Shown here piece after piece: positions 28,930 to 29,395 of a stretch of 64,000 nt of DNA. Where the stretch lies: NCBI RefSeq assembly GCF_004005995.1, contig NZ_CP034767.1:992001-1056000 (forward strand), given 5' to 3'. The first letter of the stretch is position 1, and the number at the start of each line of letters is the position of its first letter. Below the pieces are notes generated by a model that saw only the letters and a list, made by a program, of their open reading frames with translations, made no database searches and was not told the origin of the DNA. Position numbers and translations under genes: made by a program. Source of the DNA: Devosia sp. 1566. GTDB lineage: Bacteria; Pseudomonadota; Alphaproteobacteria; Rhizobiales; Devosiaceae.

Positions 28930-29040
28930 CCCCCTCCCTGGCCCTCCCCACAAGGGGGAGGGTGACACCGAGTATGTGGCACAGTCTCGCCCCAGCACTG
29001 GCATCACCCTCCCCCTTGTGGGGAGGGAAGGGAGGGGGTA
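28930..29040. repeat. Head-to-head palindrome pair before the DUF559 gene
   Basis: A forward unit (28930-28962, loop ACAA) and a reverse unit (29005-29040, loop TTGT) face each other across about 42 bases. Both have the same arms and tails as the 2.0-2.9 kb array; only the loop differs (ACAA here, TCAA there). The reverse unit ends four bases before the DUF559 start codon. Confidence 0.85.
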
Positions 29041-29044
29041 GCCG

Positions 29045-29384
29045 ATGCCCACGCGCGCGCAACGCCTGCGCAAGAACCCGACGGCAGCCGAGATCCGCTT
29101 ATGGCGCCTCATTGCGCCCTTGCGGCTCGGCTCATATCACTTTCGCAAGCAAGCGCCGATCGGCCCCTATATTGCTGATTTTGCCTGCCACCATGCCAAG
29201 CTGATCATAGAGATCGACGGCGAGAGCCATTTCCTCGGCGCCGGGCCTCAGCGCGACGCAGCCCGAACCAGCTTCCGTCAGGCTGAAGGATACCGGGTGC
29301 TGCGCTTCACCAATCTTGACGTGCACGACAACCCGGATGGCGTTTACGCCAGCGTGTTGGCTGCCCTTGCAACGGATACCGCCC

Positions 29385-29395
<11 letters not shown>
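29045..29395 (+). CDS. DUF559 family protein, Vsr-like endonuclease fold
   Basis: A 116-residue protein typical of DUF559. It has the N-terminal helix TRAQRLRKNPTAAEIRLWR, then FRKQAPIGPYIADFACHHAK and LIIEIDGESH. The Asp45, Glu56, Asp58 arrangement resembles the PD-(D/E)XK core of the very-short-patch repair endonuclease Vsr. Its biological role is not established. It sits within the carboxylase-mutase operon, four bases after a palindrome pair, and its last 11 bases overlap the mutase start. No metabolic role fits, so it may be an inserted element. Confidence 0.8.

Follow-up and report, generated by a model that had tools for sequence, protein, structure and literature searches.

Near-obligate linkage of DUF559 nuclease genes to C-rich hairpins points to a possible REP-like system in Devosia and its relatives

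DUF559 nuclease genes are near-obligately linked to C-rich hairpins, and related DUF559 proteins at different sites have related hairpins, that is, enzyme and repeat co-vary. Together with a hairpin load that follows DUF559, and with sites that are empty, hold hairpins only or hold hairpins and the gene, these observations form the basis of our preferred reading, a REP-like system whose enzyme is an EDxHD nuclease and not a RAYT, in which DUF559 would be the partner nuclease of CYCYCCC...GGGRGRG hairpins and would spread them. We put the probability of this reading at roughly 0.62, and favour it because the pattern matches the one that ties RAYTs to REPs, namely a bracketed gene, dispersed repeats and co-variation. 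REPs are abundant bacterial repeats, which to our knowledge have so far been connected with the HUH-type RAYT enzyme. The analogy suggests that DUF559 and the hairpins pair as in REP systems, but with an unrelated enzyme.

The locus that led to this reading lies in a 64,000-nucleotide stretch of the Devosia sp. 1566 genome (the window), which contains the following features:

2000..2910, no strand assigned: array of the hairpin family found at DUF559, loop TCAA, with imperfect repeats spaced ~405 bp
26886..28904, + strand: biotin carboxylase gene (propionyl-CoA carboxylase alpha type; pccA), the 5' neighbour of DUF559
28930..28962, + strand: REP-like unit 1, with a C-rich 5' tag (28930-28941) followed by the hairpin CCCTCCCC-ACAA-GGGGGAGGG (28942-28962)
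29007..29038, - strand: REP-like unit 2, inverted, with the hairpin at 29007-29027 and the tag at 29028-29038
29045..29395, + strand: DUF559 (PF04480) nuclease gene, 116 aa, predicted Vsr/EDxHD-like fold, with E16, D45, E56, D58, H62 and D71
29385..31511, + strand: methylmalonyl-CoA mutase gene, ATG at 29385, its first codons overlapping the DUF559 stop

The hairpin of unit 1 reads CCCTCCCCACAAGGGGGAGGG and has an inverse copy in unit 2, and the two units form a head-to-head, REPIN-like pair whose C-rich tags point outward. The original prediction had placed such a pair four bases before the gene; the pair is indeed head-to-head and adjoins DUF559, but its spacing to the ATG at 29045 is ~5 nt and not exactly 4. 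The coordinates above bear out the proposed position of the gene between the carboxylase and mutase genes, overlapping the mutase start, and the pair does belong to the hairpin family of the 2.0-2.9 kb array, with loops ACAA and TCAA, respectively. Only this 5' pair is present, with no 3' repeat between the window DUF559 and the mutase gene; besides the 5' part, the locus carries one additional outer unit, and the 3' unit is absent. The gene is free-standing within the operon. Its ORF scored 106.6 bits against the PF04480 DUF559 profile (curated cut-off 20.6), the protein matched PF04480 and not PF01797 in the profile search, and DUF559 is present as one copy in the host genome (single contig, 4.17 Mb).

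The AlphaFold2 model of the window protein (pLDDT 83.2) has a Vsr/homing-endonuclease-like fold with conserved catalytic-type residues. Foldseek matched this model to the endonuclease-like protein 3hrl (E 7e-7) and to the homing endonuclease I-Bth0305I 3r3p (E 6.4e-5, TM 0.80 by target length), followed by weaker matches to RAP-domain mitoribosomal proteins, which also have this fold, PvuRts1I and Vsr 1cw0 (E 0.014, TM 0.43 by target length). The six residues listed above are kept in 138/139 to 141/141 DUF559 sequences. We take EDxHD to be the label for the DUF559 nuclease, its acidic and histidine residues being presumably equivalent to those of I-Bth0305I and Vsr. Between the DUF559 genes of genomes G000 and G044, dN/dS was 0.12-0.15 with dS >1 (pairs with G066 were saturated), a ratio that suggests purifying selection on the protein.

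The host genome has a dispersed high-copy population of the REP type that includes dimers. The core CTCCCCNCAAGGGGGAGGG occurs in 77 exact copies (30 + 47) in the 4.17 Mb genome, where the reversed control pattern has 0 copies, and 30 aligned host copies define an asymmetric unit composed of the tag ACCCCCwCCCY and the hairpin CCCTCCCC-TCAA-GGGGGAGGG. Neighbouring hairpin pairs no more than 300 bp apart number 30, of which 17 are inverted. By an eye count, the variable loop base of the 77 copies is T in 70, A in 4 and G in 3, and two of the four copies with A are those beside DUF559; the main loop in the genome is thus TCAA, and that beside its only DUF559 is ACAA. PADLOC gave no match at E 0.01, and Rfam matches at the hairpins, mostly to miRNA families, all fell under gathering scores and were taken as chance. 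The cobN gene of this genome (L018/L019, ~649962-650592) also has translated repeat-like stretches, among them peptides like PHGEPVEPRGRAL and SSFDKLRMR, for which a second repeat family is a possible source.

To evaluate the linkage between DUF559 and hairpins we scanned 141 DUF559 loci (1 own, 110 from the host family, 30 from the class), the extra family loci being chosen among the matches listed (~150 places) and spread across ranks and multi-copy genomes. Under a strict rule (C-rich core, stem of 8 bp or more without mismatch), hairpins lay within 250 bp of DUF559 in 123/141 loci (1/1, 28/30, 36/40, 33/40 and 25/30 by set). When one mismatch was allowed, C-rich hairpins were found at this distance in 137 of the 141 loci, compared with 8 of 416 distant windows. 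Hairpins of any sequence with strict stems reached 5-7 per kb within 150 bp of DUF559 and did not exceed 0.6 per kb at distances above 300 bp in the same loci. Since any-sequence hairpins under the relaxed rule did not discriminate (79/80 near vs 163/342 far), only C-rich cores or strict stems were used. In named genomes, a sample which includes Devosia genomes possibly identical to some family-genome entries, a C-rich hairpin was present within 250 bp of DUF559 in 75/80 loci and in 10/342 distant windows; in a phylum sample, all 28 newly added loci, including 16 that lie beyond the class, had such a hairpin within 300 bp. As many loci are orthologous, we grouped all 249 by neighbour-protein homology into 81 site groups; hairpins were present in most members of 76 groups, and 47 of the 51 singletons had them. 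The survey of DUF559 genes elsewhere that the original prediction called for thus finds a strong association with hairpins.

Hairpins on both sides of the gene were found, by the strict criterion, in 16/30, 16/40, 13/40 and 11/30 loci. Across most of 15 loci inspected, the elements run hairpin', tag, DUF559, inverse tag and hairpin, in many cases with a small second stem between the first hairpin and its tag, and the tag beside DUF559 is GGGTGAGGGG or AGGGTGGGGG; the 3' hairpin is degenerate in L101 and L133. At L319, L355 and L365 the flanking hairpins have other sequences (CTGCCCCAC-, CCAGAGGCAC- and CCGTTCG-like), as though the repeat family were diversifying.

Protein identity and hairpin similarity were correlated across 99 of the 111 family loci, those with perfect hairpins, giving a raw r=0.654 over 4799 pairs (within-genome shuffles 0.269, with 0/2000 reaching the observed value). 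This raw value is inflated because orthologous sites are shared: 635 of 694 DUF559 pairs from different genomes with at least 60% identity have common flanking DNA, which indicates that close homologues are mostly inherited in place. We therefore no longer treat the raw correlation, or a nearest-protein test (97/99) confounded in the same way, as decisive, and rely on site-corrected tests. Among different sites only, r was 0.367 vs 0.171 for within-genome shuffles, a value reached by 1/1000, and a Mantel test over 17 site groups gave r=0.47, reached by 0/5000 permutations.

Hairpin density, counted with two exact hairpin patterns in genomes at least 90% complete, has a median of 39.2 per Mb in genomes with DUF559 (n=93) vs 5.3 in those without (n=27), a difference of ~sevenfold (p=6e-9). 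DUF559 copy number correlates with this density overall (rho 0.70) and within three larger genera (0.51, 0.63 and 0.91); no positive correlation was found in three small genera (0, 0 and -0.35; n=5 each). In five genomes of at least 90% completeness, hairpins exceed 20 per Mb but no DUF559 was found, and five with DUF559 have <5 per Mb. In G021, with 102.7 hairpins per Mb, no DUF559 was detected, which may reflect recent loss, a draft gap or another driver. Where the sampled DUF559 genes of a genome are flanked only by the CCTCCCC type, the TCTCCC type has a smaller genome-wide share (median 0.16 in 11 such genomes against 0.41 in 38; p=0.0002, sampling being incomplete for most genomes). Four genomes with TCAA-flanked DUF559, among which G026 is counted from its translated cobN insert, have 36-189 TCAA hairpins, the median of 71 others being 4 (p=0.0013). 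The host genome has 74 TCAA hairpins without any TCAA-flanked DUF559.

Different states of the same site were found at two positions. At the pccA|mcm junction, read in 50 genus loci leaving out G061 (mutase in pieces), the two genes lie within 11 nt of each other in 25 loci, 18 have an insert with hairpins only (some degenerate), three have DUF559 (G000, G044 and G066), two have something else (G059 and G071) and two reach contig ends. With G031, where an imperfect 3' unit is kept, DUF559 is present in 4/51 loci. The nearest relative, G070 (94-95% identical DNA), has TCAA-type hairpins and no DUF559 at the junction. Conservation of the gene at this operon position, which would have spoken against the original prediction, is thus not seen, and other loci are empty or hold hairpins only. 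The second position is within a gene that we take to be cobN, sampled in 30 of 58 genomes with 1/30 unanchored. Here, DUF559 and hairpins are inserted in frame in 4/29 anchored loci, 17 loci contain a short in-frame insert, and the remaining 8 lack any; the hairpin core occurs in the stretch read in 12 of the 17 short-insert loci and in none of the 8 empty ones. In L096, L100, L196 and L267 (cobN of G049, G083, G047 and G026) the hairpins are translated as TPTPGPSPQGGGE / PPSPLRGGTEGGG peptides. We found neither a clean target-site duplication nor an exact empty site: in the cobN genes of G049 (filled) and G012 (empty), matching flanks enclose 716 and 26 nt, respectively, so that this pair does not represent a clean insertion, and it has no duplication.

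Some of these findings could also be explained by a nuclease cassette, mobile or resident, that serves a purpose of its own (e.g. homing or defence), its flanking hairpins being terminators or insulators and the dispersed ones relics or moved otherwise. Such a cassette would account for hairpins close to DUF559, often on both sides, for the hairpin-rich genomes without DUF559 and for close homologues that are mostly inherited in place. We nonetheless consider it doubtful, since hairpin load follows DUF559 copy number, hairpin and protein co-vary between sites, and hairpin-derived inserts lie in frame in cobN, where a terminator makes no sense. Co-variation between sites also argues against a coincidence in which hairpins and DUF559 both collect in permissive intergenic gaps; hairpins do occur in 20/208 other gaps of the same loci, but 95/103 gaps beside DUF559 have them, which makes this explanation very improbable.

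It is unlikely that DUF559 serves as a Vsr-type mismatch repair nuclease for deaminated 5-methylcytosine with incidental hairpins. The weak fold similarity to Vsr 1cw0 is in line with this role, and an excerpt of a Caulobacter study describes VsrA, a DUF559 protein, as causing the SOS response that arises when the cytosine methyltransferase ScmA is missing (PMC12907096). However, the host genome has no match to the C5-methyltransferase profile PF00145, which in the family occurs in 52/99 genomes with DUF559 vs 15/37 without (p=0.25), and hairpin linkage would be left unexplained. With no link to a C5-methyltransferase in host or family, we rejected 5-methylcytosine repair as the main role. Least credible is that the hairpins are ordinary RAYT-mobilised REPs with DUF559 as a bystander. 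Their REPIN-like architecture resembles that reported for Pseudomonas (PMC3116915). Hairpins of the CCTCCACC type lie to either side of one of the six Y1 loci found (L223), and another (L227) has a single CCTCCCT-type hairpin. Yet RAYT-type Y1 transposases occur in only 5/136 family genomes and are absent from the other 131, including the host, which has no Y1_Tnp match, whereas 125 and 126 of the 136 genomes have at least one hairpin of the two counted patterns, respectively. No RAYT flanked by these hairpins was found in the hairpin-rich genomes here, and both the scarcity of Y1 genes and the inspection of Y1 loci disfavour this explanation.

DUF559 genes with adjoining hairpins also occur at distant loci. 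Among ten plasmid/phage records examined out of 23 matches listed, C-rich hairpins adjoin DUF559 in three Deinococcus plasmids and in the E. coli ycjD record, and three cyanobacterial cases have looser hairpins, one of them with another hairpin sequence. In the Deinococcus plasmids (L367, L368 and L369, from three species), DUF559 is antisense and lies with its C-rich hairpins in different gaps of an hpa (4-hydroxyphenylacetate) cluster. In E. coli, C-rich hairpin units lie downstream of ycjD, itself a DUF559 gene (L366 and L377, sapF-ycjD-fabI). The queried ycjD region is present to at least 80% in 3362/5426 E. coli genomes, and parts of it match 1-7 places per genome. We found no simple empty ycjD site at sapF in three other E. 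coli records, because efflux genes come after sapF there. At L172, L186, L190 and L193, two DUF559 genes ~1.8 kb apart bracket an amidohydrolase-like gene, in an operon that we take to be one of pyrimidine/hydantoin catabolism.

Based on the analogy with REP systems, we infer that DUF559 may act on the hairpins and spread them. The gene and its hairpins would form one unit, as a rule with DUF559 between two inward tags and a hairpin outside each tag, and a pair of hairpins flanking a short spacer would be its gene-less, MITE- or REPIN-like form, scattered through the genome. The nuclease could recognise the hairpin, extruded or single-stranded, or its tag, and cut or nick at the hairpin/tag or at the target, after which repair would place copies of hairpin units at new sites, either intergenic or at operon junctions. 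The REP-like system of the original prediction is partly supported by linkage, co-variation, load and the lack of a Y1 transposase here; a simple hopping picture is not, given the flanks common to most close homologues, the ACAA/TCAA mismatch and the missing 3' repeat. The window DUF559 has probably stayed between pccA and mcm for a long time and lost its 3' hairpin, the mutase start being preserved by overlap. As a single gene under apparent purifying selection and without a 3' unit, it may be a settled or domesticated copy.

We see about even odds for a broader proposal, in which DUF559 (YcjD/COG2852) nucleases are REP-driving enzymes of a second class that arose independently and occurs in more than one bacterial phylum. 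A homing-type gene of 350 bp and its hairpins would then be a minimal selfish element capable of cut-and-repair copying of REP/REPIN-like repeats without a transposase, and a source of CYCYCCC palindromes and in-frame inserts in many bacterial genomes. Should the pairing of nuclease and REP family be correct, DUF559, a common nuclease of 'unknown function' usually annotated as a repair endonuclease, would gain a role. It would also be a candidate engine for RAYT-less REPs, the hairpin-rich genomes here being mostly without RAYT, and REP spread could be tested with one small protein and a synthetic hairpin.

In the parts of the open-licence full-text literature covered, with subscription papers and preprints outside the search, we found no paper joining DUF559 to REPs. 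The catalytic domain of the DUF559 protein is predicted to share its fold with the EDxHD homing endonuclease I-Bth0305I and, more weakly, with Vsr; it differs from these in that the window DUF559 has no intron or intein, is linked to hairpin repeats and is only 116 aa long. Caulobacter VsrA likewise has a DUF559 nuclease domain but, as excerpted, is proposed for mismatch repair, and the terms 'palindrom' and 'inverted repeat' are absent from the main text of that study (PMC12907096). CGTC-tagged REPs are REP-like, mostly dimeric and mainly alphaproteobacterial repeats without RAYT, to which no enzyme was assigned (Di Nocera 2013; PMC3733652). The hairpins described here are similarly REP-like and without RAYT, but differ in tag and stem and have a candidate enzyme. 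A CGTC-type regular expression gave 25 matches in 169 DUF559 loci, of which only two in L087 and two in L093 looked real by eye, which does not support CGTC REPs as the usual DUF559 partners. Those in L087, the one close case, lie near a DUF559 gene that also has C-rich hairpins, and both in L093 are far from DUF559. In REP/RAYT systems (TnpA-REP, REPtron), rayt genes are always found between two inverted REPs and the RAYT and REP trees share topology, according to excerpts of Nunvar 2010 (PMC2817692). These systems and REPINs resemble the present one in the linkage of a gene to inverted repeats, in dispersed repeats and dimers, and in enzyme-repeat co-variation. The hairpins here are C-rich (CYCYCCC, tag ACCCCCwCCCY), unlike GTAG-tagged REPs, and the enzyme is a predicted Vsr-fold nuclease and not an HUH Y1 transposase (PF01797). 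The hairpin family is distinct from CGTC REPs, and the proposed system is of the REP/RAYT kind with an unrelated enzyme.
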